Positions 25,193 to 42,190 of a stretch of DNA of 42,190 nt are shown here, one piece after another. This DNA comes from Gemmatimonadales bacterium (lineage in GTDB: Bacteria > Gemmatimonadota > Gemmatimonadetes > Gemmatimonadales > GWC2-71-9): the NCBI GenBank assembly GCA_030699545.1, contig JAUYMC010000029.1, positions 1 through 42,190 of the forward strand, read 5' to 3'. Numbering within the stretch: the stretch's first letter is position 1; each line of letters starts with the position of its first letter. The position numbers and the translations under genes are program-made. The notes below the pieces were generated by a model. It was not told where the DNA came from. It worked only from the letters and a program-made list of their open reading frames with translations, and ran no database searches.

Positions 25193-26065
25193 TCACGTAC
25201 TCGGATCGGGCTTTGACGGCTCTCCCGTGAGCTCGCGTAGGCTACGCCGCTTCACCTTTGTGGGCCCCGTTGAAGGGTCAAGCGTAGCGGTCTCAGGTTG
25301 TTGGCCCGCCTCGCGCAGAAGATCCAGCAGCCCGCCGCGCGCGCCAGGTGACGGCACGGCGGAGGTACTCGGCACCGGCACAAGGCCGATCTTCTTCAGG
25401 GCCTCATCAAGGGCCGTGTAGTTTGGAGCCACGCCGAGCACGGAAGCCATCGTGTTGAGATCCCGAACGCCGACTCGCTGGAGATCCCGAACGATGGTGA
25501 GAACCTCGTCGATCTTGTCGTCGCGACTCCGCTGCGGTTTAGGAGGTGCGGCAACAGGGATCTTCAACGCGTCAGCCAGTTTGCTCTCGAGCTCGGGCCA
25601 TACGCGCCCGAATGAGCGCTGCAGCCGCGTCTCGCTCAGGCGGCGATCGGCATCGAGCAGCCCGTTGATTGTCTGCAGGACGCGCCAAGTATCATCCTTT
25701 TCGGCTTTGGCGGCCTGCAACTGTGCTAGTGGAGCTTTTAGGTCCGCAGGGGTGAGATCGAGCAGGTAGGGGCATGCAAGACGTTCGCTGGTACTCATGG
25801 CGAGCGCTCCAGCCTCAAATAAAACCCATGGTTCGCCAGCGTTCTCCGGCGTCACGCATAGAAGCCCGTAATTCGCGGACTTCAGGTTTGCCCCGATCGT
25901 CGCAAACCACTGCGCACCTCGCTCCATCTCCTCGGAGATCCAAGGTTCGACGGCGTGCAAGGCATCAGGAAGCCACTCGGCGAACGCTGTCGCCACTGCC
26001 CGGCTGCGCTGGCCGGACCAACCGATAAACACCTTCACTGATGCCGGCACGGTTGCCGCCGTCAT
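25193..26065 (-). CDS. TIR-domain protein
   Basis: VKVFIGWSGQRSRAVATAFAEWLPDALHAVEPWISEEMERGAQWFATIGANLKSANYGLLCVTPENAGEPWVLFEAGALAMS; start chosen at MTAATVPASVK with ATGA overlap. Confidence 0.8.
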   Translation of the reverse strand: MTAATVPASVKVFIGWSGQRSRAVATAFAEWLPDALHAVEPWISEEMERGAQWFATIGANLKSANYGLLCVTPENAGEPWVLFEAGALAMSTSERLACPYLLDLTPADLKAPLAQLQAAKAEKDDTWRVLQTINGLLDADRRLSETRLQRSFGRVWPELESKLADALKIPVAAPPKPQRSRDDKIDEVLTIVRDLQRVGVRDLNTMASVLGVAPNYTALDEALKKIGLVPVPSTSAVPSPGARGGLLDLLREAGQQPETATLDPSTGPTKVKRRSLRELTGEPSKPDPST

Positions 26066-26283
26066 GCGCGCCGCGGCGCCGACAGCGCTAGCGCCGAGCG
26101 GTGACATTCCACGCAGTGCGCGGCGAACCGGTCGAGCGAGCCCAGCGTGACGATGAGCTGCGACCCGTCGCGGGGGCAGCGCAGATCCTCGAGCCCGCGC
26201 GCGAGGGCCTGCTCGACGATCACCCGGCATTCGTCGTTGTCGAACGGGGGGACGTTGGCCGTGTTGAAGGTCTGTCGATCCAT
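26062..26283 (-). CDS. Small (73 aa) zinc-ribbon-like protein coupled to the TIR gene
   Basis: MDRQTFNTANVPPFDNDECRVIVEQALARGLEDLRCPRDGSQLIVTLGSLDRFAAHCVECHRSALALSAPRRA; CGGAGAA upstream of ATG; ATGA overlap. Confidence 0.6.
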   Translation of the reverse strand: MDRQTFNTANVPPFDNDECRVIVEQALARGLEDLRCPRDGSQLIVTLGSLDRFAAHCVECHRSALALSAPRRA

Positions 26284-26540
26284 GGCGGTTCTCCGAAAGG
26301 AGCGGCGACCGGGGTCCGAGATGGGCATCAGCGGCAATGCTATGCCAGGCTCCGGAAGGGGGCAAGCAGCGACAGACCCCCTACCTCATGCATTACCTGG
26401 TCGCTGCCTTGTCGCTCTGCCTGATGGTTGTTGGTGGTGGCGCGCTGCGGCCGAGCGCCGCGCGCGGGGGCACGAGAACGCTGCACCACCCCTCTGGCTC
26501 CATCGTTCTCTCTGAGATCCCGGAGACCGCTCCGGCTCGC

Positions 26541-26560
26541 CGGTCGGCGCCAGCCGACCG
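26541..26560. other. Strong stem-loop CGGTCGGC-GCCA-GCCGACCG in an intergenic region
   Basis: 8-bp perfect arms, 4-nt loop. Confidence 0.6.
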
Positions 26561-26856
26561 TGAGGTACGGCTTCCGCTGGCGGGTTGGGTGCGGGCCAGC
26601 CACACCCATCTTTCGGAAGGCAGTGCCGTGAACAGTGCCAACGCCCCCGGTGCTGGCTGGCGCTGGTAGGCGTGAGTTGTTTTGACGTGAGGAACAAGCA
26701 ACGCAGAAGGGGACGGGTCTCGGGGCGCAGCCGGGGGACACTCGACGGAGAACGCTCAGTCCTGCTGCTGTTTCTAAGGGCTAGGGAATTAGGAATCCTC
26801 TGCTCGCGCTGATGCTGCTTCCGTTCGCCCCCCGACTACCGCCGACGTCAACAGTA

Positions 26857-29800
26857 CTAAGCCGCGCCTTGATAACGGCCGTCTGGATTCTGCTGCGCTT
26901 CGCCCATGACCTGCAGAATGTCTAAGTGCCGTCGGACTATATCGATCTTCGCTCCGCTGAACCGAGAGGCGACCTCCTCAGCGGTGAGCGCCTCTGCCGA
27001 CAGCAACTGTTTGATGGCGCCGATCTGACTGATAACATCGGTGGGCCAGACAGGCCGCTTCGTCCTCTTGGGAGTTGCTGGCGCGCCTTCAGTGAGACCG
27101 AGGCTGGGAGGGGCCACAGCGAGAGCCTTTCCGAAGAGGGGGATCTGGAAGTCGGGGCGCAACCAGCGCACCCTGCCGCTTTGTTCCTCCTTCAGACGCT
27201 CGTCGTGCAGCGCGACGAGCCGCTCAAGCATAACTTCGCCTTCGATCGGCCACGTCCAACCATAGGCGTTCGCGACCAGCGCGTCGAGGTCTTCGTGCAG
27301 ATCCTTCAGGATCCCGCAAGCCGCGATCTCGTGGATCTTGCGCTCCATGGGCGTCAGCGGTTCGCCGCTCTTCAGTTTTTCGACGACGTTGTACATGCGC
27401 GTCATCGTGACAGCGCGGTCGCGCTCGATGGCTGCCCTGCGATGGGCATCTAGTTTTTCGGCCACCTTGCCGATCTTTTCGCGCAGATCGGACGGAGGGT
27501 CCGGCAAAGGAAAGGGGTCGAAGCATACCGACTTGTTGTATCGGGGGCGGTCCTCAAGCGTACCACCCGCAGCAAGCGCCCAAGACACGTGAATGGAGGA
27601 GCTGAGGACGCCTAGATGCCAAGCATCCGCTGACGCGATTGCGATCAGCATGTTGTCAGGAGCGACTCTCTCATCAAGAAATACAAAGAACCGATGTTTC
27701 GCCGTCTCGGGTGTAGCGATGTACCTCGGGAGCCCGTGAAGCGCTGTTCTGAGCTCCTTTCTCGGCCAGCCGAATCGCCACCAGAACTCACGGATTGTAT
27801 CACGCCGATTCGCGTCTCGATCCGGCTTCACTCGCGCGCGGACAATGTCGAAAAGAACCGGATACTGTCGGGCCTCGTCCTCGGTCATGTACCCGAAATC
27901 GATTACATAGGCGTTTCGGGGACGTGCTGCCAAGTCCTTTCCGTTTCTGTACGGGCGTAGCACCCACGAGGTCCGCGGCTGTTCGGCGAGCAATGCCTGG
28001 GCGGCCTGCTCTTCGACGATGAAGCCTGGACCGTACAGCGCGAATCCCATTGAAGAGATGCCCTCGTTAGCCAGGAGCGGCGTGCCGGCAGTCGAGGCCA
28101 CATTGGCGTGCGCGCTGAAGTCAGGGTTCAAAGCCTTCACGGCAGCAGTCCTGACGATCTCTCCGCTGTCAGACACTTCCACGAGCAGCGCGCTCGGAGG
28201 GTTGAGTGCCATGACCGTCATGGCTACCCGCACGGCAGCTCCATCCACTTCGTCCACCCACGGATGGTCAGGCACGGCCCAAGATGGCCTCGCACCCTTC
28301 GCAAATGCGGCCTCTACTACGGGCCGCTGGTGGACTTGTGTGATCGAGTTCGTAGTGATGAGGCCAGCCCGCAGCGCGGATCCGGTTGCGACAAGGTCCG
28401 CAGCTCGGTCCCACCAGTACAGCACGTAGTCCGTACGCTCGGCTAGGTGATCGAAAGTTGCCCTTAAAGCGTCAACATACCCATCACCAAGAGCATCTCG
28501 CATCCGCTTCGACCCGAGGTAAGGCGGATTCCCGAAGATGAAGTCGGCCGTGGGCCACGTCGCCGGGCGCGGGTTCACGTACTCCATGTACTTCACGATT
28601 GCGGCGGGATCAGGCACCAGCTCGCCTGTCACAGGGTGCTTGATCCGAGGGGTGGGATCGAGGCGATCACGGCTTGGATCGTGTCGGATCTCATCCCACA
28701 CCAGAATCGCGTCTCGACATTCGATCGTCCCGGTGTCCTCGAGGATGGGCTCCTGTGGGCGATGTGCGTGATGGGCGCGCCAGAACTGGTGATACCCGAT
28801 CCATAGCACCAGCTCTGCGATCTCCCTTGCCCACAGCTTGATCTCGATCCCGAAGAACTGCTTCGGGTGCACCTCGTCGAATAGGATTTCGTGCTTGCCG
28901 GTCACCTCCTCCAGCTCGCGCAGCACCTCCAGCTCAACTCGTTTAACGATGTGCAGAGTGACGTAAAGAAAGTTGCCGGACCCGCAGGCCGGATCCAGGA
29001 ACCGCAGCCCCTTTAACCAGTGGTGGAAGGCACGCAGCCGCTTCTCAGCGTCCTTTTTCTTTCCCGCTTCTCGCAACTGAAGCACCGCTGCCTGCTCTGC
29101 CTTCCATCGCTCACGAACCGGCTCTTCCACGGTGGGGCGTACCACGCGCTCGACGAACTCGCGCGGCGTGAACTCGGCGCCCAACCGATGGCGTTCCTCG
29201 GGGTCGAGCGCCCGCGTGAGCAGCGTACCGAAGATTGCCGGTTCGACATCCTGCCAGTCGGCCTCTCCCGCCAGGCGCAGAATGAGGATCGCTTGCTTCG
29301 TGAGGGGAAGGGCCTCGGAGTCCCGAAAGAAGTGGCCGTTGAAGCGCGGCAGCTTCTTGAACACGAACTTGTCCCCGATGTCCATTGCCTTCCAAAGCGC
29401 GGCAGCCTGCTCGGGGAACGCGGTCGGGTCGTCCGTGCAACGCTCGAGAACTTGGCGGAAGGGCTCGTCCGGCAACAGGCCGATGTCCTCTGCGAAGATG
29501 GTGAACACACACCGCATGATGAAGCGCGCGACACGCTTTTGCTCATGGCCCTGGTCCTCGAGCGTCCGCGCGAGGTTAGCCAGGTGCCCTGCGACATCCT
29601 TGGTGACCGCTTCCGCACGAGCGCGCGGGTCGAGCGAGGATGGATCAGTCCAGATGGCGCGTAGGAACGCGGCGTCGTCCGGCCGTTGGTGCAGGAGCGT
29701 CAAATCGATGCGGCGGCCGGCCTGCCAATCGCCGTAGTTGCCATCCCAGCGATCCCAGACGATGAGTGTCCGGGCCACATGCATGACCATTACAAAAGGA

Positions 29801-30132
29801 GGCATCCCTCCGGGTGCGTAGGTGACATAGTTCCGCACCTGCCCGAAGGCTCGTCGCAACAATAGATCGCTCGACCGTCCGCTTTCCTCGTCCTTCGCCT
29901 CGATCGCGAAGTAGTCGCGGCGGTAGCAGTCGATATAGTTAGGGACCTCGTCGCCAGCCTTCGTAACAACCCTGATTGCGAGTTCGAACTGGTACCCCCC
30001 GCCGGCCGGTCCCGGACGCGCAACGTCGAGCGCATCGCAGAGTTCAATGAGGTAGGACTGGAAGTTGGCACGTTCGGCGGCCCGAGCATCGGCCCACCGC
30101 TCAGCCAGCGCGCGAAGTGGCTCGGCAGACAT
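26857..30132 (-). CDS. Class I DNA N6-adenine methyltransferase with N-terminal nuclease-like region (MmeI-like / Type IIG-like)
   Basis: 1091 aa; YIDCYRRDYFAIEAKDEE (possible PD-(D/E)XK), LRFLDPACGSGNFLYVTLHIVKRVELEVL, FFGIEIKLWAREIAELVLWIGYHQ, DFIFGNPPYLGSKRM, ITTNSITQ. Confidence 0.8.
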   Translation of the reverse strand: MSAEPLRALAERWADARAAERANFQSYLIELCDALDVARPGPAGGGYQFELAIRVVTKAGDEVPNYIDCYRRDYFAIEAKDEESGRSSDLLLRRAFGQVRNYVTYAPGGMPPFVMVMHVARTLIVWDRWDGNYGDWQAGRRIDLTLLHQRPDDAAFLRAIWTDPSSLDPRARAEAVTKDVAGHLANLARTLEDQGHEQKRVARFIMRCVFTIFAEDIGLLPDEPFRQVLERCTDDPTAFPEQAAALWKAMDIGDKFVFKKLPRFNGHFFRDSEALPLTKQAILILRLAGEADWQDVEPAIFGTLLTRALDPEERHRLGAEFTPREFVERVVRPTVEEPVRERWKAEQAAVLQLREAGKKKDAEKRLRAFHHWLKGLRFLDPACGSGNFLYVTLHIVKRVELEVLRELEEVTGKHEILFDEVHPKQFFGIEIKLWAREIAELVLWIGYHQFWRAHHAHRPQEPILEDTGTIECRDAILVWDEIRHDPSRDRLDPTPRIKHPVTGELVPDPAAIVKYMEYVNPRPATWPTADFIFGNPPYLGSKRMRDALGDGYVDALRATFDHLAERTDYVLYWWDRAADLVATGSALRAGLITTNSITQVHQRPVVEAAFAKGARPSWAVPDHPWVDEVDGAAVRVAMTVMALNPPSALLVEVSDSGEIVRTAAVKALNPDFSAHANVASTAGTPLLANEGISSMGFALYGPGFIVEEQAAQALLAEQPRTSWVLRPYRNGKDLAARPRNAYVIDFGYMTEDEARQYPVLFDIVRARVKPDRDANRRDTIREFWWRFGWPRKELRTALHGLPRYIATPETAKHRFFVFLDERVAPDNMLIAIASADAWHLGVLSSSIHVSWALAAGGTLEDRPRYNKSVCFDPFPLPDPPSDLREKIGKVAEKLDAHRRAAIERDRAVTMTRMYNVVEKLKSGEPLTPMERKIHEIAACGILKDLHEDLDALVANAYGWTWPIEGEVMLERLVALHDERLKEEQSGRVRWLRPDFQIPLFGKALAVAPPSLGLTEGAPATPKRTKRPVWPTDVISQIGAIKQLLSAEALTAEEVASRFSGAKIDIVRRHLDILQVMGEAQQNPDGRYQGAA

Positions 30133-30537
30133 GGCTGACGAATATGGAGTGGGAAGAACGGACGGGCTACGAGCGCTTCACGGTGGTCAGAGCCCTCCGA
30201 TTGGAGATGAGTAACTGCAGGGAGTTACGGCTTGATCCCGCAGGCTGAATGGAGATTGACGCGCGGTTGACCCTATCGCCTCAACGTCGGTGAGTGCTCC
30301 TATCGCTGATTCCGCTCGATCACGCGCTTCCAGCCGTCCAAGCGTACCTCGCGAGCCGCGACGTGCCGCCACCTCACTAGCGGTCTTGGTTTTGCACGAG
30401 TTTTTCCTGCGGATCGAATGAACTGAATCGCTTCTGCCTGTGGTCGCTGACTCGCCCTTGCGATATCTGGATCAGTTGATCCGGCGAGCACCACCACCAG
30501 ATAGGATCCTAGAGCGCGAAAAGATTCCCTTTGGCAT

Positions 30538-31998
30538 TCAGTGCTCCGACCGTTCTCCAAACGCGGCCTCGAGAAGCACAGCGAGCACTCCCTCGGCCGT
30601 CCGTAAAACGATGCGCTGCGCTTCTGGGTTTAACGATCGGCCCAAGCCATGCGTGTCTCCGTGTAGAATCTGTATGAGCTCGACGGTCCGCCCGACGTCA
30701 GCGTCCACGAATTCCTCGTAGGCGGTCCCTTTAAGATGGCGGAAGATATATCGAACTCGGAGTGCACGACTCGGACGACCATTGGGGAAGTCCTCGGGCC
30801 GCGATTCCTTCCACTCCCTGAGTGCTCGATCGGGGGCGAGCTCGTGGAGAACGTGAGTGAGGAGCTCGCGCAACGAAGTGGCCATGTGGCGCGTCGAATC
30901 GGGACCGCCCGATACGATCGCATGCGCGGCGCCCCGATAAGTCGTGACAAGTTCCGGATTCACCCGTTCAAGAAGGGGCTCAACGCGCAGCGCGGCGAGC
31001 TCGAGTCTTTCGATCGCCGCTGTGGGTTCGTTCTCTACCGGCGAGCCGGCGACCGCTGCGGCCGCGCGCGACGCGGAAAAAACCTCAATGCCAGGTGCCT
31101 CTTGGAGCCACGGGACCACCGGCGGGGTAGCCTGCCTTTCCCAATCAACCCAGACGGCGTGCGAGGCACGAGCAAGCGACGCTAAGCCCTGTGAAAGTGC
31201 CTCCGCTGCCGCTCCAGTCTGTCCCCGAATACCGGCCAGCACATTGAGCTGGGCTTCGTGAACCGCGGCTGCGCGAAAACCATCAGTGATGGCTGCTAAG
31301 GCCGATGGAAGGCTCGTCAGCCGCGCGTTCGCCGCTGCCGCAGAAGCCATGTCGGCCAGGAGGTTGGTGTGCCGCTCGGTGGCCAGCAGGAGGGTTTGGT
31401 GCGGTAAGACCGACTCCTGCAGTCGGGCGGCCGCATCCATCATCCGGATCGGCCCGGTTATCGACTTACGCATCTCCTCGCTCGCCTCGAGCAGGCGGAC
31501 GGGTCCGAGCATCGACGTCCGCCATTTTGCCTGACTTTGGATGAACGAGTCCATGACCCGCATGAACAAGGGCGGCTGGAGTGCCGCCATCATTCGGCGA
31601 GCACCGCGTTCCGCGATCTCAAAACCGGACGACAGCGACTTTCGGACGGACTCCCGCGCGTCCTCGAGATGTCGGTCCACCGCCTCGACAAAAGCTTCCG
31701 GGAGTTGCTTCCCCTCAATCGGACACTTCAATCCGAGGCGATGCCCCGCCCACGCGACCGCGAGCGCATCGCGGTCCTCAGCCGGCCATGACCGGAATTC
31801 CTCAAGACTCGGTGTCGGCAACAGCAGGTGATCGTGAAGTGCGCGCAGGACGAGCTCGACCGTCGCGCCGTGTTCTTTGCGAAGATCCTCCAGTGCAAAC
31901 GTGGACTTGTAGCTCACCCAACGGAGCGACACGACGCCATGAATTGGCGTCTGCACCTCGATAGGATCCGGCGTTCGCGCGACAAAGGCCACAGGCAA
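30538..31998 (-). CDS. Hypothetical protein; C-terminus resembles predicted pPIWI-associated nuclease-type domains (tentative)
   Basis: C-terminal YRGAAHAIVSGGPDSTRHMATSLRELLTHVLHELAPDRALREWKESRPEDFPNGRPSRALRVRYIFRHLKGTAYEEFVDADVGRTVELIQILHGDTHG. Confidence 0.5.
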   Translation of the reverse strand: MPVAFVARTPDPIEVQTPIHGVVSLRWVSYKSTFALEDLRKEHGATVELVLRALHDHLLLPTPSLEEFRSWPAEDRDALAVAWAGHRLGLKCPIEGKQLPEAFVEAVDRHLEDARESVRKSLSSGFEIAERGARRMMAALQPPLFMRVMDSFIQSQAKWRTSMLGPVRLLEASEEMRKSITGPIRMMDAAARLQESVLPHQTLLLATERHTNLLADMASAAAANARLTSLPSALAAITDGFRAAAVHEAQLNVLAGIRGQTGAAAEALSQGLASLARASHAVWVDWERQATPPVVPWLQEAPGIEVFSASRAAAAVAGSPVENEPTAAIERLELAALRVEPLLERVNPELVTTYRGAAHAIVSGGPDSTRHMATSLRELLTHVLHELAPDRALREWKESRPEDFPNGRPSRALRVRYIFRHLKGTAYEEFVDADVGRTVELIQILHGDTHGLGRSLNPEAQRIVLRTAEGVLAVLLEAAFGERSEH

Positions 31999-32049
31999 CT
32001 CGCGGAGATGGACAACGACCCGACGAAACTACGTAACGTTGGATACTGT

Positions 32050-32192
32050 TCAGAGCCAACCTCTCCCTCGCGTCGACGCGATTCGAGCTGCATGCGGGCG
32101 AGGCAACGAAAGCGCAGGATCTGTTCCGGGCGCTGACGCCGGCGAACAGGGCGCCGCTGGTTTCCTTCCTTGAAACTCTGTTAGGCGTCTAA
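32050..32192 (+). pseudogene. 3' remnant of a di-heme cytochrome c / thiol-oxidoreductase-like gene (tentative)
   Basis: Reads ...ANLSLASTRFELHAGEATKAQDLFRALTPANRAPLVSFLETLLGV-stop, like the HxGEA...F..L....LxxFLxSL tail of such proteins; no start or haem motifs. Confidence 0.4.
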
Positions 32193-32231
32193 CAAAGACG
32201 TCTAACAAAGGCGTCGAACGAAGGCGTTAAC
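32184..32231. repeat. 13-bp tandem repeat, ~3.7 units
   Basis: GGCGTCTAACAAA / GACGTCTAACAAA / GGCGTCGAACGAA / GGCGTTAAC. Confidence 0.8.
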
Positions 32232-32429
32232 TGCTTGGCGGCGGGTGCGCGTAGAGCCGCTGGATAAGCTTCAACACAAAGACGCATCGGCCCTTCAGTA
32301 TGCTGATGAACCGCCCCTGTTCCACGAGACGGAGTTGCCCAAGAGGTTTCGTGCGCAGAGCCGCGGGCGCCGCCGATCCGCGCCGTTCGCGCCCCGCGTC
32401 GCACGCGCGAGGGGACAATAGGGGGACAG

Positions 32430-33008
32430 CTACTTGTCGCGCAGCGCCGGGTCGATCGCCTCCGTCAGCCGCGCCACACAGGCCCGCAGATCCGCGAGCT
32501 CGGCGGCCGCGTTCGCCTGATCGGCGGGCGTCCGCTTGGCGACGTCGGTCTCGACGTGTGACGCCGTCATGACCCGGTAGTACAGGCCGTACGCCTCCCG
32601 GATCGACCGCGCCACGCGCGGCGAGGCGTGCGGCGCGGACGTGACCGCACGCTGCAGTCTCTCCTCGACCTCGTCAGTCGCCTCGCCCAGGTACAGCCCC
32701 TGCAACGACGGCAGGCCCCCGCCGCGAGCCACCCCCTCAAGCGAGGACACCCACACGCGCACAACCCGACGGACGGCATAGGCGTCGACGCTGACCGCCG
32801 TGTCGACGCTCGCGCGCTCGCGGAACCGTTCGAGGATAGGCAAGAACAGCGCGACGACCGCCGCCACGCCCACGATGATCGTGGCCCACTCGGCCACGGT
32901 GCCCACGAGCCCGCGCCCCGACTGGACGACCCACACCGTGTCCACGACGCGGATCGTGTCCACGACGCGGACGGTGTCAGGGACGGTCGCGACCGCTTGC
33001 GTCAGCAT
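32430..33008 (-). CDS. Hypothetical membrane-anchored protein with N-terminal VVDT repeats
   Basis: VPDTVRVVDTIRVVDTVWVVQSGRGLVGTVAEWATIIVGVAAVVALFLPIL. Confidence 0.55.
   Translation of the reverse strand: MLTQAVATVPDTVRVVDTIRVVDTVWVVQSGRGLVGTVAEWATIIVGVAAVVALFLPILERFRERASVDTAVSVDAYAVRRVVRVWVSSLEGVARGGGLPSLQGLYLGEATDEVEERLQRAVTSAPHASPRVARSIREAYGLYYRVMTASHVETDVAKRTPADQANAAAELADLRACVARLTEAIDPALRDK
32938..32988. repeat. 18-bp tandem repeat within CDS 32430-33008
   Basis: GTGTCCACGACGCGGATC / GTGTCCACGACGCGGACG / GTGTCAGGGACGGTC (encodes the VVDTIR repeats). Confidence 0.65.
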
Positions 33009-33433
33009 GGCGCCGGGAAGCTACGCCGACTCGCGTCAGGCCGCACGGCCGGCGAGCCCCGCCCCCCGGCGCGTGGGGCTGCTGCCGAGCCGGCCGGCGG
33101 AACCCGGGAGGTTTCTACAGTCTCCCGGCATCGGAGAGTGCAGACTCCAGCGGCCTTCTCTGAGCCCTGTCCCCCCGCTGTCCCCCTGCCCTACCCCTCG
33201 ACGCGCGCCCTCGAGCTCGAAGCCGCGTCGGCGCGAGGTACACACGCGGTAATCGCCCCCGCCGGTGTCGCCCACGGCACGCGCGCGAGAGGTCCCGGCG
33301 AGACGTGGGGCCGGCATCGCCGGCGCGTGAAATCGCGAAAGGGGAAAAGCAACCGTGGGGCCCCCAGGCACCGAGCGCGTCGGGTTTCGTCGTGTATGTT
33401 CAGTTGGACCAATGCCTGTCCTGAGGTGGACCT

Positions 33434-33847
33434 GTGCAACTCAAGTACGCGCATCTCACCGATTTTGCGACCGTCGGCAACAACGGGAAGCTGATTCTAG
33501 TCGGGATATTCTCCAACATCTTCGACGCGCTCAAGGTGAAGCCCATTCCGTTCCCACAGTTCCACCTTGTCGCCGTGTTCGAGGCTCATGTAACAGAGGG
33601 CACCGAGCACAAGCTGACGGTGCGCTTCGTCGATGGCGACGGCCGGCCGGTGATACCGGAGTTCCACGGGCCAATCAAGTTCAAGCCCACGCGGAAGGGC
33701 CGACCGATGGAGGGGAACGTGTTGATTGGGTTCGGGCCGGGAACCGTGAAGGTCCCCGAGCACGGAGACTACGAGTTCCGCTTCCAGATCGACGACCATG
33801 ATGCGGGGGGTGTGATCGTGGCCGTGACGCCCCCCGTTTCTGGATGA
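33434..33847 (+). CDS. DUF6941-like protein
   Basis: MQLKYAHLTDFATVGNNGKLILVGIFSNIFDALKVKPIPFPQFHLVAVFEAHVTEGTEHKLTVRFVDGDG. Confidence 0.65.
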   Translation: MQLKYAHLTDFATVGNNGKLILVGIFSNIFDALKVKPIPFPQFHLVAVFEAHVTEGTEHKLTVRFVDGDGRPVIPEFHGPIKFKPTRKGRPMEGNVLIGFGPGTVKVPEHGDYEFRFQIDDHDAGGVIVAVTPPVSG

Positions 33848-34146
33848 GTCGGTGGCGAAAGTTCTGGATGAGCAAATGGCGTAAGTTATTGGTGCGTATG
33901 CTTCAAGACCGCGACCCGCGGAACTATAGCTATGCGGATGCGGTACGAGTATTACGAGGTCTCGATTTCGCTCTTGCGCCTCACGGCGCCGGAAGCCACC
34001 GTTGCTGGCGCGCGGTCGCACCGTCGGGAACCGTGGTGGTCATTGGCCTCGTTGATGGAGGTCACGGATCACTGAAGCCGTACTTGATTCGCGACATGAT
34101 TGGCCAGCTACGGACGAACGCGATGATACCCGCCGACCTGGAGTAG
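33844..34146 (+). CDS. HicA-like toxin (start may be the internal M at 33868)
   Basis: YSYADAVRVLRGLDFALAPHGAGSHRCWRAVAPSGTVVVIGLVDGGHGSLKPYLIRDMIGQLR; paired with the downstream gene. Confidence 0.65.
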   Translation: MSRWRKFWMSKWRKLLVRMLQDRDPRNYSYADAVRVLRGLDFALAPHGAGSHRCWRAVAPSGTVVVIGLVDGGHGSLKPYLIRDMIGQLRTNAMIPADLE

Positions 34147-34148
34147 AT

Positions 34149-34535
34149 ATGCCGTGGACTGACGCGCAGAAACTCAACTACCTCATAAAATTACCCTGGA
34201 CGATCGTCCCCGACAGGACACCCGAGGGGGAGCGCCTCTTACGGGTGGCCGAACTCCCCGCCGTCGTGGCGTGCGGCGATACCAACGAGGCCCTCGAAGC
34301 TGATTTTTGGGCCGCGCTCGAGGCGGCGCTTCGCAGCTACCTCCACTTTGGAGATCCCCTCCCGCTCCCCGCGCAGCGGCCGGCTCTGCCCTGGGAAACC
34401 GCTGAAGACGTGCCGACGAAGTTTGCCGTGCGCATGGTGCACGGCCGGCAACAGAACGTGACGGACGCGGATACCCGCTCGGATGGCGAGTGGAAGGAAA
34501 TGCTGCGGCCGGAGCCGGATCTCGTCGAAGCGTAG
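34149..34535 (+). CDS. HicB-like antitoxin
   Basis: YLIKLPWTIVPDRTPEGERLLRVAELPAVVACGDTNEALEADFWAALEAALRSYLHFGDPLPLP; directly after HicA. Confidence 0.6.
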   Translation: MPWTDAQKLNYLIKLPWTIVPDRTPEGERLLRVAELPAVVACGDTNEALEADFWAALEAALRSYLHFGDPLPLPAQRPALPWETAEDVPTKFAVRMVHGRQQNVTDADTRSDGEWKEMLRPEPDLVEA

Positions 34536-34612
34536 CGCCAACCCCCGTCCCAAAAAGGGTGCCTGCACTGGTGAGGTGGGTCCGCCGGGCGGTCAAACCC
34601 CGCGCGGGCGTG

Positions 34613-35326
34613 TCAGCCGCCTACCGAACCACGGGTCACTGAGGGTTTGATCGTCAGCTTCAGAGGCCGCTGGTGCTCCGGGTCGGCCGAAATAACAACC
34701 CGGTCCAGCGGAAAGCTCACGAGGCGCCCGCTCCCCAAATAGCGGACCTCAACGGAGTGGGCCGAGCAGCTCTCGATTCGGCAGTCCTCCGAGCCTCCAA
34801 TGGTAATCCCCATGTTGGTCGCCACCCGCCGATAGATCACTGTCACCGTCTTGCCTTTGTGTCGGAGGATCGCGCCTGCCTTCGTGTTCCGGCTGGCGAT
34901 GAGATCCACGTAGATGGCAGGTGAAGCCTTTACCGTCTTGGGGCCGTCGCGCACATACGCCGGCCCGGCGAAGTGCGGGCGCTCCGTACTCGCGGTTACA
35001 ATCACGGCGACGATGTCGCGACCGTCTGAGGTGAGCGTGACGCACTCGAACGTGATGGGCGGATAGCACTCGTTCGCCCACGTCGCAACCTTCTCCCCAA
35101 CTGCCGTCGCGTTGTTAAGGCCGACGGCTGTGCCGTCCTGCCTGGCTCCGAGGAATAAGACACCCGGGCGTTCAGGGGTCGCGGAGTTAGCCAACGCGAC
35201 CAGCGCGCGCCTGACGTCTGATTCGTGGGGGGTGGTCTTGATCTCTGTGAGCGTGTCCTCCCCGGCACGGAGCCGAGCAAAGAGATGCTCCGGTGTCACG
35301 GTCCCGAAGCGGAGAAGGCGGTGCAA
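34613..35326 (-). CDS. AlbA_2/Schlafen-type putative DNA-binding protein
   Basis: EDTLTEIKTTPHESDVRRALVALANSATPERPGVLFLGARQDGTAVGLNN...YPPITFECVTL...VRDGPKTVKASPA; the true start may be GTG ~27 nt inside. Confidence 0.7.
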   Translation of the reverse strand: MHRLLRFGTVTPEHLFARLRAGEDTLTEIKTTPHESDVRRALVALANSATPERPGVLFLGARQDGTAVGLNNATAVGEKVATWANECYPPITFECVTLTSDGRDIVAVIVTASTERPHFAGPAYVRDGPKTVKASPAIYVDLIASRNTKAGAILRHKGKTVTVIYRRVATNMGITIGGSEDCRIESCSAHSVEVRYLGSGRLVSFPLDRVVISADPEHQRPLKLTIKPSVTRGSVGG

Positions 35327-35340
35327 TCGACGAAGGTCAT

Positions 35341-35389
35341 CATGCGCGTGAAAGTGCCCTGCGCCGTTTCGCTGTCAACCCGGACAACC
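35341..35389 (-). repeat. 49-bp dispersed element, copy A
   Basis: Gapless match to 37692-37740, 38/49 identical, terminal 17 nt TGTCAACCCGGACAACC identical. Confidence 0.65.
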
Positions 35390-35477
35390 TGCGACCGCGA
35401 GAAGCTGCGTCTAACGACCGCCAGAAAACAACGAGCTGCCCGACGAGCACCACGAGCGTGAGAACGCCGATCAATCA

Positions 35478-36842
35478 TCACGGTTTCCGTTCCCGCTGTT
35501 CGGTCTCGGCCCGGGCGCGGTGCTGCTCGACAAGGCGCCGCGCGACGTGCAGCAGATCGCGGCCGCGTTCGGCGAACTCTGCCACCTCCTCCTCGCTGGC
35601 CATCCTCGAGTCTGGAAGCGTCATTGTCATGGCCTCGGGATCCAGATCGAACCTTAGGTTGTGCCACCGTGGGGAGGGGTGCCCGGCGTCGGATAGCGCC
35701 GACCAGAGCCCGCGGAGAACGGCGACCAGTTCAGCGGGGGCTCCATGCGCTTCGAGGTGGTTGATCATCGCGGTCCGGCTCATATTCGACCAGTGCCAAA
35801 AGCGAGGTTTCGTGGCCTTCGCGTCGGCGTACACGCGGCGCACGAGACCGGCATCGCCGCCCATCCGCGCGACCGCCCGCGCCGTCGCCTCAATGACCTC
35901 GTCTGCCGTTTCGGCCCCGCGCAATTCAGCCTCGCCGTTCGGATCGGCGCCGGCGACGACCGCGGCCTGCTGCAACCCTCGCTCGCGATCGAGCAGGTTC
36001 CACGCCACAGTGCGCGCAGCGGCCTCCGCCGCATCAGGCGCGTACAGCAGATACATGAGATCGAGCGCCGTCTCGAACAGGAAGCGCGCAAGCGGCTCGG
36101 CACCGGCCGGGTGGCGTGCACGCGCTAGGATTTCCATAACTTCCGCCGTTGCGACAGCCCCGTGCAGGTAGCGGATCACCACCGAGTCTTGCAGGAAGCG
36201 CGGCCCGTAGACCCGCAGCGCAGCGCCATCGAACATGGCCCGGCACGCCTCAATTTCCGCAGCGAGGCCCGCGAGCGCGTTCGCCGACTGATCGAGTGAC
36301 ACCACGCCGGGGGCGCTGGCGGTCCGGTGTCGTCTGAGGATTCCAGCGCGGAGACGCTGGCCGACCGTCGGCCGCTCGGCTAACGACAGAGTCCAGCCGG
36401 TCGGAGTCTGGCGTGGCTCGCCGGCGGCTAGAAACTCGCTTGCATATGAACGGCCGCGCTGATCGCGGAACAGCACCCGCACCTCCCGAAACGGACCATA
36501 CGACGACGCGGCCCACACCATCGCCGCCTCGAAGTCGGCCGTGTAACTCTGTCCCGGCTTGACCTCGACGGGCAGCGGCGGCGCAGTCGCGAATCGCGTG
36601 GTGCTCATGGCGATTCTGCGCGTGTCGAGCGTCGCCTCGGCGAGGAAGATCGGCTCGCGGCCGCGGTTCGAAATCGTCGCGGCCAGGACGAAGGGTTGCG
36701 CGGCCGCCCCTGCCCGAGCGGTGTAGCCGAGGCCGACGCGGGCGCGGCCCGGCGCGCGTGTTAACGCGCGCACCGCAAGGATCGTCGCAAGGATGGCGCC
36801 CCATCCGGCGATCGCGGTCGTGACCCACCACGCGGCGTCCAC
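35478..36842 (-). CDS. Hypothetical protein, N-terminal TM, C-terminal DUF5677-like region
   Basis: WWVTTAIAGWGAILATILAVRAL; RFLFETALDLMYLLYAPDAAEAAARTVAWNLLDRERG...RFWHWSNMSRTAMINHLEAHG. Confidence 0.55.
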   Translation of the reverse strand: MDAAWWVTTAIAGWGAILATILAVRALTRAPGRARVGLGYTARAGAAAQPFVLAATISNRGREPIFLAEATLDTRRIAMSTTRFATAPPLPVEVKPGQSYTADFEAAMVWAASSYGPFREVRVLFRDQRGRSYASEFLAAGEPRQTPTGWTLSLAERPTVGQRLRAGILRRHRTASAPGVVSLDQSANALAGLAAEIEACRAMFDGAALRVYGPRFLQDSVVIRYLHGAVATAEVMEILARARHPAGAEPLARFLFETALDLMYLLYAPDAAEAAARTVAWNLLDRERGLQQAAVVAGADPNGEAELRGAETADEVIEATARAVARMGGDAGLVRRVYADAKATKPRFWHWSNMSRTAMINHLEAHGAPAELVAVLRGLWSALSDAGHPSPRWHNLRFDLDPEAMTMTLPDSRMASEEEVAEFAERGRDLLHVARRLVEQHRARAETEQRERKP

Positions 36843-37740: not shown

Positions 37741-37903
37741 ACGTTAGGCGGACGGTGCCCTGCCAGACTTGACCGCACACCGCGCTGCCCGCGCTGCAAC
37801 GGGCCGCTGACGTTCGGGACCGACAGGGGGGGTGCCCTCCAGCCTGGCGCGGGCGACGATCGCGCGCGGCAGCTTCGCGCCCGTCCCAACCAGATCTGTG
37901 TAA

Positions 37904-38389
37904 AGAGCCTGCTGGCGCCGCGTCTCGAGGCTCCCCGCCTGCCACGCAGCGTACCTCAACGCCCGTGCGCTGGCGGAGGACGCGGCGCTGCTGCTCCGGG
38001 GCAAACGGTACGCACGCGCCACCGCCCTCGCGGTCACCGGGCTCGAAGAGGCCGGCAAGGCACTCCTGCTGTGGTTCGTGGGCCTGGGTCAGACCCGGGA
38101 GACGCACCGCGAGGAGGTGCTGGAGGCCGTACGTTGGAACCACAGGCTGAAACAGGCGACCTCGCTCCCGCTCCGCGTGATCGGCCAGGTCATCCCGCTC
38201 GTGCGGCGCATCAGGTTCACGATGCCCAGGCGCGCCGAGCGGCCTCGGAACTGGGCCGACGCCGAGCGGTTGCTTCGTGAGATGTTGGGCGGGCTGGCGA
38301 CGGCCGTCGAACCGATGATCGACGAGGCGCTGAAGGCCGAGCCGATGGTCACTGAGGACGCCGTGCAGCGCGTCGAGGTAGGGACGTAG
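37904..38389 (+). CDS. AbiV-family-like abortive-infection protein; 5' end unresolved (no ATG/GTG/TTG in frame, possible frameshift)
   Basis: HAAYLNARALAEDAALLLRGKRYARATALAVTGLEEAGKALLLWFVGLGQTRETHREEVLEAVRWNHRLKQ; frame opens after TAA at 37901-37903. Confidence 0.55.
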   Translation, partial: RACWRRVSRLPACHAAYLNARALAEDAALLLRGKRYARATALAVTGLEEAGKALLLWFVGLGQTRETHREEVLEAVRWNHRLKQATSLPLRVIGQVIPLVRRIRFTMPRRAERPRNWADAERLLREMLGGLATAVEPMIDEALKAEPMVTEDAVQRVEVGT

Positions 38390-38508
38390 TGCCGGATCCC
38401 AGGGAATACGACGACGACCTCGAGTTCGAGCGCGCCGAGCAGGCCGATGCCGAGGAGGGGCGGCGGGAGCTCGCGCCAGGCAGCGACGAGGACGAGGAGA
38501 CGTCGTGA
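38389..38508 (+). CDS. Small acidic protein (39 aa)
   Basis: VPDPREYDDDLEFERAEQADAEEGRRELAPGSDEDEETS; TAGTG overlap with AbiV-like stop. Confidence 0.5.
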   Translation: MPDPREYDDDLEFERAEQADAEEGRRELAPGSDEDEETS

Positions 38509-38687
38509 CCGGAAGGCGGCCGTTCGACGATCCGGAGCTCGCGAGGGAGGCGGCCCGAAAGGGGGGCCAGGCGAAGGCGGCGAAGCTCCGCGCCGCGCGA
38601 CTAGGTGCACCCGACGCGACGGCGCGCCGAGTAGCCGCTGCCCATCGTCACGGCCGTGCGCGGCGGCGAGGGCACCCCCCGTGGTGA
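38505..38687 (+). CDS. Small basic protein (60 aa)
   Basis: VTGRRPFDDPELAREAARKGGQAKAAKLRAARLGAPDATARRVAAAHRHGRARRRGHPPW; GTGA overlap. Confidence 0.5.
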   Translation: MTGRRPFDDPELAREAARKGGQAKAAKLRAARLGAPDATARRVAAAHRHGRARRRGHPPW

Positions 38688-38736
38688 TAGGTTTGGGGGT
38701 GCCCACGAGCATCCCATTCGCTCTTCGGAGGTCCGA

Positions 38737-40824
38737 GTGAAGCCGAAGAAGGGCCGCCGCCCGGCGGCCCCCCGCCCCGCTGTGCGCGCCGCTCCGGAAC
38801 CTGCACCCGAGCTGGCACCGCACCCGGGGCACAAGTACCAAATGCGGATCTCGCGCCTGACGATCGACAAGTTGGGTGTGAAGCTCTACGACAAGGTCGC
38901 CGCGGTGCTCGCCGAGCTCGTGGCGAATTGCTACGACGCCGACGCAACCACGGTCCGAATCACCCTGCCGTTCGACACCTACCTCGCGATCCAGCGCGAG
39001 GGCGTCTGGATAGACCAGGGGCACGAGATCGTGATTGAGGACAACGGGCACGGGATGATGGCCGACGAGGTCAACCGGCACTACCTGCACGTCGGGATCA
39101 ACCGCCGGACGACTCGCGGCCAGCAGACGCCGCACGGCCGGCAGGTCATGGGGCGAAAGGGTATCGGCAAGCTCGCCCCGTTCGGCATCTGCCACGAGAT
39201 CGAGGTCGTGACGGCCGGCGGCGCCCGGGGGCCCCAGGGATTCAGGGTCTCGAACTTGATCCTGCGTTACGAGGACATGCTCACCGAGGACGAGGAGCCG
39301 TACAACCCCATCGTGGGCCCGCTCGACGACACGTTCCTCCCGGAGACAGGGACGCGGATCACCCTGCGGCGCTTCGACCGTCGACGGGTCCCAGACGGCC
39401 CGGCGCTCAACCGGCAGCTCGCGGCGCGGTTCGGGCTCGTCCGCCCAGACTGGCGCGTCCAAGTCGTCGACTCGGTCGCTGCGGGCGACACGTTCGTCAT
39501 CGGCGACCTCCCGATCCAGAAGCTCGAGGGAACGGAGATCCGGCTCGAAGATCGCCCCGTACCCATGCCCAACGGGGGGCCCGTGCTGCCGGTCCGAGGT
39601 TGGGTCGCGTACGCCAGCGTCCCGTACAAGGACGAGGCCATGGCAGGCATCCGCATTTTCGCCCGCGGCAAGCTCGTCGCGCAGACCCGCGACTTCGACA
39701 TTCAGTCGGGCTTCACGGGCGAGTATAAAATGCGCAGCTATCTCGTCGGCGAAGTGCACGCGGACTGGCTCGACGAGGGCGACGAGGACCTCGTCCGGTC
39801 GGATCGTCAGGACATCCTCTGGAACTCGGAGAAGGGAGAGGCGCTGCGCGACTGGGGGCAGGCCCTCATCCGTGCCCTTGCCGGGCAGGCCGAAACGTCG
39901 CTCCGCGGCAGGGTCTGGGACGACTTTCTCGAGACGTCACAACTCGAGCGGCGCGTCCAAGAGGCCGCCCCCGACGACCCCGCCTTTCGCGACAGCGTCG
40001 TGCGGGCGGCGAAGCTGCTTGTCGGCCGGAACGACCGCGAGGCGGTCAAGGACGCCGACTACGCGCAGCGCGTGGTCGACTTCGCCTTTGCGGTCGGCCC
40101 GCAGCGCACGCTTCTCTCCGCCCTTCACCAAGCGGCCGACGAGGCCGGGACAACCCTCGACATCGTCCTCGACCTCTTTCACCAAGCTGGCGTCGCGGAG
40201 ACGTACTCGTTGGGCGTTGTCGCCCAGGAGCGCGTCGACGCCGTTGGGCACTTGGAGACGATGATCAGGACCAACGAGACGCAGGAGGCCAAGCTGCAGG
40301 TACTGGTCGAGGGCGCCCCTTGGATCCTACACCCGGAGTGGACGCCGCTCAGCCGTAACGAGTCGCTCAACACCTTCCGCCGGGCGTTCGAGGCGTGGTA
40401 CCGCCAGAGGTACGGCCGGGACATTGTAACATCGGCGATCGAGCATCCAGCGCGCCGGCCCGACTTCGTCTTTGTGCAGGACGAAGGCTTCCTCGAAATC
40501 GTGGAGATCAAGCATCCCGGTCACGCGCTGACGGACGACGAGATGGACCGAGCGTACGGGTACCTCCAGGCTCTCCAACAGTTCTTGGCTGAGAGCCCGG
40601 ACGTGGCCCGCGGTGTAGGCCGCCCGCGCCTCGTGATCATCTGCGATGCGACCACTTTCACGCGCCCGTCGTCGACGGGAGCCTCGCGTGACGCGGACGT
40701 TTCGCTCAGGGCGTGGGCAGGTGTGTTGCACGCGACGATGCACGCGCACGAGGACTTCCTCGCGGCAGTCCGCGGGCGTCGAATCACGCCTCCGCCGCTC
40801 GGCGGGCTAGGCGAAGATGCGTGA
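38737..40824 (+). CDS. GHKL ATPase (MutL/MORC-like) with C-terminal PD-(D/E)XK-type (DUF4263-like) nuclease region
   Basis: LAELVANCYDADATTVRI (N box), VIEDNGHGM (G1), GRKGIGKLAPFGI (G2), TGTRITLRRF; C-term LVEGAPWILHPEWTPL...RRPDFVFVQDEGFLEIVEIKHPGHAL (D...ExK); GTG start with GGAGG upstream. Confidence 0.8.
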   Translation: MKPKKGRRPAAPRPAVRAAPEPAPELAPHPGHKYQMRISRLTIDKLGVKLYDKVAAVLAELVANCYDADATTVRITLPFDTYLAIQREGVWIDQGHEIVIEDNGHGMMADEVNRHYLHVGINRRTTRGQQTPHGRQVMGRKGIGKLAPFGICHEIEVVTAGGARGPQGFRVSNLILRYEDMLTEDEEPYNPIVGPLDDTFLPETGTRITLRRFDRRRVPDGPALNRQLAARFGLVRPDWRVQVVDSVAAGDTFVIGDLPIQKLEGTEIRLEDRPVPMPNGGPVLPVRGWVAYASVPYKDEAMAGIRIFARGKLVAQTRDFDIQSGFTGEYKMRSYLVGEVHADWLDEGDEDLVRSDRQDILWNSEKGEALRDWGQALIRALAGQAETSLRGRVWDDFLETSQLERRVQEAAPDDPAFRDSVVRAAKLLVGRNDREAVKDADYAQRVVDFAFAVGPQRTLLSALHQAADEAGTTLDIVLDLFHQAGVAETYSLGVVAQERVDAVGHLETMIRTNETQEAKLQVLVEGAPWILHPEWTPLSRNESLNTFRRAFEAWYRQRYGRDIVTSAIEHPARRPDFVFVQDEGFLEIVEIKHPGHALTDDEMDRAYGYLQALQQFLAESPDVARGVGRPRLVIICDATTFTRPSSTGASRDADVSLRAWAGVLHATMHAHEDFLAAVRGRRITPPPLGGLGEDA

Positions 40825-41296
40825 TCAGCTCACGCGCGAGCAGCGGTACCGCGCAATGGTGGCGAACCGTGGCCGCACGGGGCCGGAGCTGGCACTCGCG
40901 CACGCCCTGTGGCGTCGCGGGCTGCGCTACCTGACGGCAGACGGCTACCGGCGCCTTGGCGGCCCCCGACTGTCCGGACACCCCGACATGGTGTTCGCGG
41001 GCCGGCACGTCGTCGTGTTCGTCGACGGCTGCTTTTGGCACGGCTGCCCGCGGTGCAAGGGGATCCCGACCCAGAGCGGGGCGTTCTGGCGTCGCAAGAT
41101 CGAGACGAACGTCGCGCGTGACCGACGAGTCACGGCAGAGCTACGACGGGCGGGTTGGGCCGTGATTCGCGTCCCCGAGCACGCTCTGCGCGACGAAGCC
41201 CGGCTAGCCCGGACGGCCGCGCGCGTCGCCCGTCGCGTCCGCGCGCGCCGGTCGCGTGCGCCGCGCACTTCCTCGAGGCTGATCCCTTGGCGATGA
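40817..41296 (+). CDS. vsr: Very short patch repair (Vsr)-like endonuclease
   Basis: MVANRGRTGPELALAHALWRRGLRYL...LSGHPDMVFAGRHVVVFVDGCFWHGCPRCKGIPTQSGAFWRRKIETNVARDRRVTAELRRAGWAVIRVPEHAL. Confidence 0.92.
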   Translation: MRDQLTREQRYRAMVANRGRTGPELALAHALWRRGLRYLTADGYRRLGGPRLSGHPDMVFAGRHVVVFVDGCFWHGCPRCKGIPTQSGAFWRRKIETNVARDRRVTAELRRAGWAVIRVPEHALRDEARLARTAARVARRVRARRSRAPRTSSRLIPWR

Positions 41297-42190
41297 GCCG
41301 ACTGACTCCGAAGGGGTTTCTGCGGCTGCCGAGGACGCCTCGGCCGCGACGCCGGACGGCGGTCTCGCTATTCTCCGGGGCGGGCCTGAGCGACCTCGGC
41401 TACGAACTCGCCGGCTTCAAGTTCCACGTGCAGGTCGAATGGGACGCGCGGCGCGCGGCGATCGGGCAGAGGAACTTCCCGGACTCGACGTGGCTCGTCG
41501 CCGATGTCGGCGCGGCCGCTCGCCGGATCGCGGCGGCGTACCGTCGCAGCACCAAGCGACCGCTCGACCTTCTGACGGCGACGCCCCCGTGCCAGGGCCT
41601 GAGCAGCTCGAATCCGAGCCGCGGGAAGCGCCGCACGAGGGACGGCGCCGAGGCCCACGCCGAGAAGAACCGGCTGATCCTCGCCGTGCCGCCGATCGCC
41701 AGGGCGCTGAAGCCGAGGCTGATCGTCGTCGAGAACGTCAGGCAGATCCTCACGCTGCCGACATCGCACCACGCCGAGGAGCTCGTCGTCGACCTTTTCC
41801 GCCGCGAGCTCCCAGGTTACGAAGTGTTCGAGGGCGTCGTCAACGTGGCGGACTACGGCGTCCCGCAGGATCGCCGCCGCGCGGTCGTCGTCGCGATCCG
41901 AAAGGACCAGCCCATTCTCCGTCGCTTGCAGGCGCTCGGGCTCGCGCCGTGGCCGTCTCCGACGCACGGGGAAGGCCGCGCGCCCTGGGTTTCCGTACGG
42001 ACTTGGCTCGAGGGCGTCGGCTACCAGCGGCTCGAGGCGAGCTCCGAGCGGGCGGCTCGCGGCCGGCACGCGCTGCACCGGGTACCCGCGTACGACGCCG
42101 ACCGCTTCGCGCTCGTCGCCGACATTCCGCCGTACACCGGCCTCAGCGCGTACCACAACGATCGCTGCCGACGTTGCGGCCACGAGCCCG
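41293..42190 (+). CDS. DNA (cytosine-5) methyltransferase, truncated by window edge
   Basis: ATGA overlap with vsr; AVSLFSGAGLSDLGYELAGFKF (I), LLTATPPCQGLSSSNPSRGKR (IV, PCQ), IVVENV (VI), VADYGVPQDRRRAVVVAIR (VIII); ends ...CRRCGHEP still open. Confidence 0.92.
   Translation, partial: MSRLTPKGFLRLPRTPRPRRRTAVSLFSGAGLSDLGYELAGFKFHVQVEWDARRAAIGQRNFPDSTWLVADVGAAARRIAAAYRRSTKRPLDLLTATPPCQGLSSSNPSRGKRRTRDGAEAHAEKNRLILAVPPIARALKPRLIVVENVRQILTLPTSHHAEELVVDLFRRELPGYEVFEGVVNVADYGVPQDRRRAVVVAIRKDQPILRRLQALGLAPWPSPTHGEGRAPWVSVRTWLEGVGYQRLEASSERAARGRHALHRVPAYDADRFALVADIPPYTGLSAYHNDRCRRCGHEP

Follow-up and report, generated by a model that had tools for sequence, protein, structure and literature searches.

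A predicted paraMORC3-type restriction-modification locus encoding a MORC-like ATPase-nuclease, a Vsr endonuclease and a C5 methylase in a Gemmatimonadales contig

The paraMORC3 proteins, consisting of a GHKL ATPase and a C-terminal E-D-ExK domain, were described in restriction-modification (RM) operons together with a methylase and Vsr (Iyer, Abhiman and Aravind, 2008; PMC2292703). M.HgiDII is an m5C methylase acting on GTCGAC, and M.BbrUII is also an m5C methylase (PMC5867850). In 2025, anti-phage defence by VcSduA of the Vibrio cholerae WASA lineage, a GHKL plus DUF4263 protein, was reported to require both the ATPase and the nuclease (PMC12137116).

In this work, we analyzed a 42,190-nucleotide stretch of DNA from a Gemmatimonadales bacterium (hereafter, the window), which constitutes an entire contig with its 3' limit at 42190. 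Our results indicate that the locus at this end is very probably a Type II-like, and probably ATP-dependent, RM system of the paraMORC3 or HgiDII-BbrUII kind, composed of a restriction enzyme (REase), Vsr and a C5 methylase. The basis for this reading, obtained by direct analysis, is the gene order, the domains, the conserved ATPase and nuclease motifs, and a recurrent linkage of the genes. Six ORFs lie on one strand between 37904 and 42190, at the coordinates given in the original prediction, and the gene order and every junction claimed there were found in the sequence: TAGTG between the AbiV-like and acidic ORFs (38387-38391), GTGA between the acidic and KGG ORFs (38505-38508), a 49-nt gap separating the KGG ORF from the REase gene (38688-38736), an 8-bp overlap of the REase and Vsr genes (40817-40824), and an ATGA overlap of the Vsr and methylase genes (41293-41296). 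The features are as follows:

37904..38389, + strand: AbiV-like HEPN ORF without a start codon (HEPN_AbiV)
38389..38508, + strand: acidic ORF, 39 aa (codon-position GC pattern)
38505..38687, + strand: basic ORF, 60 aa, with a KGG motif (PF10685)
38667..38707, + strand: 13-bp inverted repeat, 12/13 pairs, between the KGG and REase ORFs (repeat detection)
38737..40824, + strand: predicted paraMORC3-type REase, 695 aa, GTG start (HATPase_c_3, NF050001, PADLOC REase_II, AlphaFold2); predicted layout of a GHKL ATPase at the N-terminus, followed by a middle and helical region and a C-terminal PD-(D/E)XK domain (Shedu-like)
38914..39188, + strand: GHKL ATP-binding motifs, namely N-box ELVANCYDAD, DNGHGM and MGRKGIGKLAPFG (invariant alignment columns)
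40285..40512, + strand: nuclease active-site region E517 - D576 - E590-x-K592, i.e., E-D-ExK (alignment conservation)
40817..41296, + strand: Vsr very-short-patch repair endonuclease, 159 aa (TIGR00632, Pfam Vsr, PDB 1cw0)
41293..42190, + strand: C5-cytosine DNA methyltransferase, first 299 codons (PF00145), truncated by the contig end

The protein encoded at 38737-40824 matched the Pfam domain HATPase_c_3 (1.5e-17), and its best PADLOC models were those of Type II restriction enzymes (REase_II, 1e-32). The NCBIfam model of the BbrUII/HgiDII enzymes, NF050001, covered residues 34-626 at 2.4e-71. Since this match scored 241 bits and thus stayed below the curated cut-off, which is set at 550 bits, the window REase belongs by sequence to a sister clade of NF050001 and is no strict member; low-scoring matches to this model in 288/298 genomes were read as other GHKL proteins and left out of the counts. 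In an alignment of the window protein and 61 homologues (62 sequences), the invariant positions of the ATPase were E60, N64, D67-A70, D102, G104, G106, G139, K141, G142, G144 and K145. The AlphaFold2 model of the full-length protein had a mean pLDDT of 85, with MORC3, MORC2 and SMCHD1 as best PDB folds; the middle alpha/beta region, at the position of S5 in paraMORC3, was overlapped by MORC/Hsp90 fold matches without a separate identification of S5. Sequence searches of the PDB with the REase returned GHKL relatives only, and a search of the genome contigs with a single sequence gave no matches; an alignment query did give matches.

At the C-terminal end, E590 and K592 were invariant (62/62 sequences), and E517 and D576 were present in 61/62. 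The isolated domain was modelled with a pLDDT of 88.5, and its weak top fold matches were mostly PD-(D/E)XK nucleases (MspJI, EndoMS, FokI, AspBHI); a sequence search of solved structures with this domain yielded nothing useful. Both the proposed D...ExK region and a nuclease fold were thus recovered, and the sequence and model data taken together identify this protein as a predicted REase of the paraMORC3 type, with a MORC-like GHKL ATPase followed by a C-terminal PD-(D/E)XK domain. This domain is, as judged from profile matches, related to the Shedu nuclease domain: SduA_C was found in 52/59 homologous C-terminal domains at E < 0.1, with a best value of 5.8e-7.

Such a relationship raises an alternative in which the REase would sense phages in the manner of Shedu (type I-D, VcSduA-like), its nuclease being triggered by some feature of the phage and not by unmethylated sites, with the methylase and Vsr only guarding the host. 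VcSduA, which also consists of GHKL plus DUF4263, defends as a single gene, and the REase relatives of Nocardia stand alone, both in agreement with this possibility. Nevertheless, the SduA_C match of the window protein itself lies below the gathering score (16.6 vs 27 bits), and a methylase is linked in 69/94 loci, including all six clade relatives (L076-L081), as an RM system predicts. We therefore consider a Shedu-like mode of action unlikely, and an RM system is the reading followed here.

The linkage was assessed in 94 homologous REase loci, drawn from public genomes and from viral contigs; since near-duplicates occur among the viral contigs (L160, L161, L162, L169), the counts refer to loci and not to independent events. 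The C5 methylase of the 69 linked loci lay within 1.5 kb of the REase homologue, and 28 of these loci also had Vsr within 3 kb. Annotated records likewise show a cytosine methylase adjoining the REase homologue in Pantoea, Halobaculum, Deinococcus (with Vsr) and Pseudomonas plasmids, as well as in a P2-like E. coli phage whose homologue bears the annotation paraMORC3. The original prediction of a MutL/MORC-type GHKL ATPase next to Vsr and a C5 methyltransferase is thereby supported by domain match, fold and recurrent linkage. In the REase tree, the window, L081 and L076-L080 formed one clade (SH-aLRT 94), and the NF050001 HgiDII/BbrUII enzymes were found in a separate one. The order REase-Vsr-methylase is common to the window, L076, L079 and L080; L077 encodes a fused Vsr-methylase downstream of the REase, and in L078 a methylase is present and Vsr was not detected. 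The closest REase is that of L081 (59% identity), which is followed by a methylase of another type and then another Vsr, whereas the Vsr and methylase of the window are closest to those of L076-L080. This pattern suggests that the methylase-Vsr part has been exchanged, and the target would not be fixed by the REase clade, because the closest relative carries a different methylase type.

The remaining 25/94 loci had no linked methylase, and 21 of them belong to Nocardia (L086-L110, L146), with REase homologues approximately 50% identical to that of the window and no C5 methylase detected within roughly 6 kb. In one of these, L088, the flanking genes are metabolic (acetolactate-synthase-like, serA-like), and neighbour families around the Nocardia REase recur in about 16 loci. 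A C5 methylase was found elsewhere in the genome in 17/17 Nocardia genomes tested, and the four genomes inspected displayed a conserved C5 methylase followed by a Vsr-like ORF. The Nocardia homologues may correspond either to a split RM system or to a solitary nuclease, and some family members may not act as RM systems, given these relatives without a linked methylase. REase homologues without a detected methylase also occur in L113 and L120 (Cenarchaeum, archaeal MAG), as a tandem pair in L120.

The C5 methyltransferase (Dcm) proposed at the end of the module was confirmed by a PF00145 match (9.1e-27) and by PCQ, ENV and QDRRR motifs in the translation. Only 299 codons are contained in the window, vs about 440 in homologues, and the gene is incomplete because the contig ends at 42190 and not for a biological reason. 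The best relatives of this methylase are the REase-linked methylases of L076-L080 (52-60% identity). Given the distance to HgiDII, the GTCGAC site of M.HgiDII cannot be carried over to the window system. We also considered an avoidance of GTCGAC in the window, where 21 sites were observed vs 30.6 expected; these counts are too small for a call.

The ORF between both genes was equally well identified as the Vsr-like endonuclease that had been proposed next to the ATPase gene, as it scored 109 bits against TIGR00632 (cut-off 97.85), matched Pfam Vsr at 4.7e-18, and aligned with E. coli Vsr (PDB 1cw0, 1.6e-14) at the GxPD and GCFWH motifs. The original prediction assigned it a role as nickase; in a broader form of this proposal, Vsr would serve restriction as a subunit, either structural or nicking, and would not be a repair enzyme. 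PADLOC does label the Vsr family 'Type II nicking endonuclease', and the gene sits amid the REase and methylase genes, overlapping both. The window protein, however, exceeds the cut-off of the Vsr family proper, no nearby Vsr is present in 41/69 methylase-linked loci, and fusions in three homologous loci join Vsr to the methylase, at the N-terminal side in L077 (9005-10783) and at the C-terminal side in L121 (6012-7622) and L135 (9054-10664), with no fusion to the REase in any locus. A role as restriction subunit is hence quite improbable in our estimation; because the fusions seen join Vsr to one or the other end of the methylase and never to the REase, mismatch repair is the favoured function of the putative endonuclease over that of a restriction nickase.

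The three upstream ORFs differ from these genes. The first one matched HEPN_AbiV with 51.5 bits (cut-off 27.1; 1.6e-13), so that its AbiV-like nature was upheld, but not a complete reading frame. The frame opens after an in-frame GTG-TAA (37898-37903), no ATG, GTG or TTG exists from the TAA (37901-37903) to 38078, and a start at 38078 would lie inside the HEPN_AbiV domain and delete its first helices. This ORF is probably a 5'-decayed neighbour gene outside the RM system, as its sequence suggests; alternatively, the missing start codon may reflect a misassembly or the use of an atypical start. The 39-aa acidic ORF has a coding-like codon-position GC (0.85/0.41/0.90) and zero family matches; it is possibly coding, with nothing in the sequence tying it to the RM genes. 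The 60-aa basic ORF contains a KGG motif (PF10685, 1.3e-6) and a weak codon pattern, on which its status as a genuine gene is doubtful, and it would likewise fall outside the RM system.

According to the original prediction, all six genes constituted a single module of methylation-gated, ATP-dependent restriction, with Vsr as nickase and an abortive-infection arm made up of AbiV with two charged peptides. The unbroken same-strand, stop/start-coupled order in the contig is in line with this, and HEPN domains in RM operons have been proposed as suicidal back-ups; nonetheless, the same HEPN survey reports AbiV without RM association (PMC3710099). When conservation was assessed for the six genes, the linkage of REase, methylase and Vsr recurred, but neither the AbiV-like, the acidic nor the KGG ORF was found near about 120 REase homologues by single-sequence searches (about 28 and 94 loci; with these short queries diverged copies could be missed) and neighbour-ORF clustering. 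The AbiV family model matched 4/38 REase-carrying genomes and was adjacent in none, the nearest case lying roughly 10 kb from the REase on a shared contig (G095). In addition, an AbiV protein search of plasmids gave no match, and a DNA-level search of 60 relatives with the AbiV-to-KGG stretch gave short chance pieces only; a further AbiV protein search of 298 genomes of the phylum also contributed to the rejection of these ORFs as system parts. Moreover, the REase gene is preceded by the 49-nt gap with the inverted repeat at 38667-38707, which may mark a boundary between units. A terminator at this repeat was considered and found unconvincing, with no T run and a folding no better than that of shuffles (z -0.94). 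An abortive-infection arm is unsupported, because the AbiV frame lacks a start codon and the searches near these homologues found none of the three ORFs, and neither the tiny charged proteins as module parts nor an under-described variant with such an arm is sustained. We regard the six-gene module as extremely unlikely; the locus is better read as a three-gene RM system beside unrelated genes.

Further upstream, a defence island spans positions 25193-36842 of the window, with the following profile matches:

25193-26365, - strand: TIR-domain protein
26857-30132, - strand: MmeI-like Type IIG enzyme
30538-31998, - strand: pPIWI-associated nuclease domain
33844-34535, + strand: possible HicA-like/UPF0150 pair (weak)
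34613-35326, - strand: Schlafen AlbA_2
35478-36842, - strand: DUF5677

For the three-gene RM system, we propose that the C5 methylase would deposit m5C on the site of the system, thus marking host DNA, and that the GHKL-nuclease, presumably as a dimer, would use ATP for clamping or rearrangement on DNA. Unmodified foreign DNA would be cut by the C-terminal PD-(D/E)XK domain of the REase, and Vsr would nick T:G mismatches arising from deaminated m5C, leading to repair of the site; the AbiV-like ORF and both mini-ORFs would be unrelated neighbours within a defence island. We infer the ATP dependence, dimerisation, site protection and repair by Vsr from the respective protein families, and a need for ATP of the window REase is suggested by the loss of anti-phage activity in both the ATPase and the nuclease mutants of VcSduA (PMC12137116). 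A more speculative idea, to which we give a minor chance, is that the GHKL clamp of the window's paraMORC3 clade couples recognition to cutting in an ATP-gated and methylase-tuned manner, on an REase scaffold that has been re-paired with methylases of differing types (window vs L081) or is solitary (Nocardia), forming a modular continuum from RM to Shedu-like systems.

When compared with known systems, the window REase shares with paraMORC3 the GHKL ATPase and the RE-fold E-D-ExK, as well as operons with a cytosine methylase and Vsr; nothing essential differs, the window being a Gemmatimonadota locus with a compact REase-Vsr-methylase order and no helicase gene. It resembles HgiDII/BbrUII in the extent of the NF050001 match and in the m5C methylase partner, but scores far below the cut-off and falls in a separate tree clade. 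The two-domain plan is shared with VcSduA, a GHKL-containing Shedu of type I-D; in contrast to that single-gene defence, the window has a linked methylase and Vsr, and its SduA_C match is below the cut-off. As for the AbiV abortive-infection proteins, the upstream ORF has their HEPN_AbiV domain, but it lacks a start codon and is unlinked to REase homologues in other genomes. The gene combination has been known since 2008 and the architecture was defence-tested in 2025; the window adds a further member, from a clade that is sister to the curated family. Taken together, this locus joins three seldom-connected literatures, those on the HgiDII/BbrUII enzymes, the bacterial paraMORC ATPases and GHKL-type Shedu defence, and homologues whose methylase is linked, exchanged or missing constitute natural test cases for the control of a nuclease by a MORC-like ATPase.
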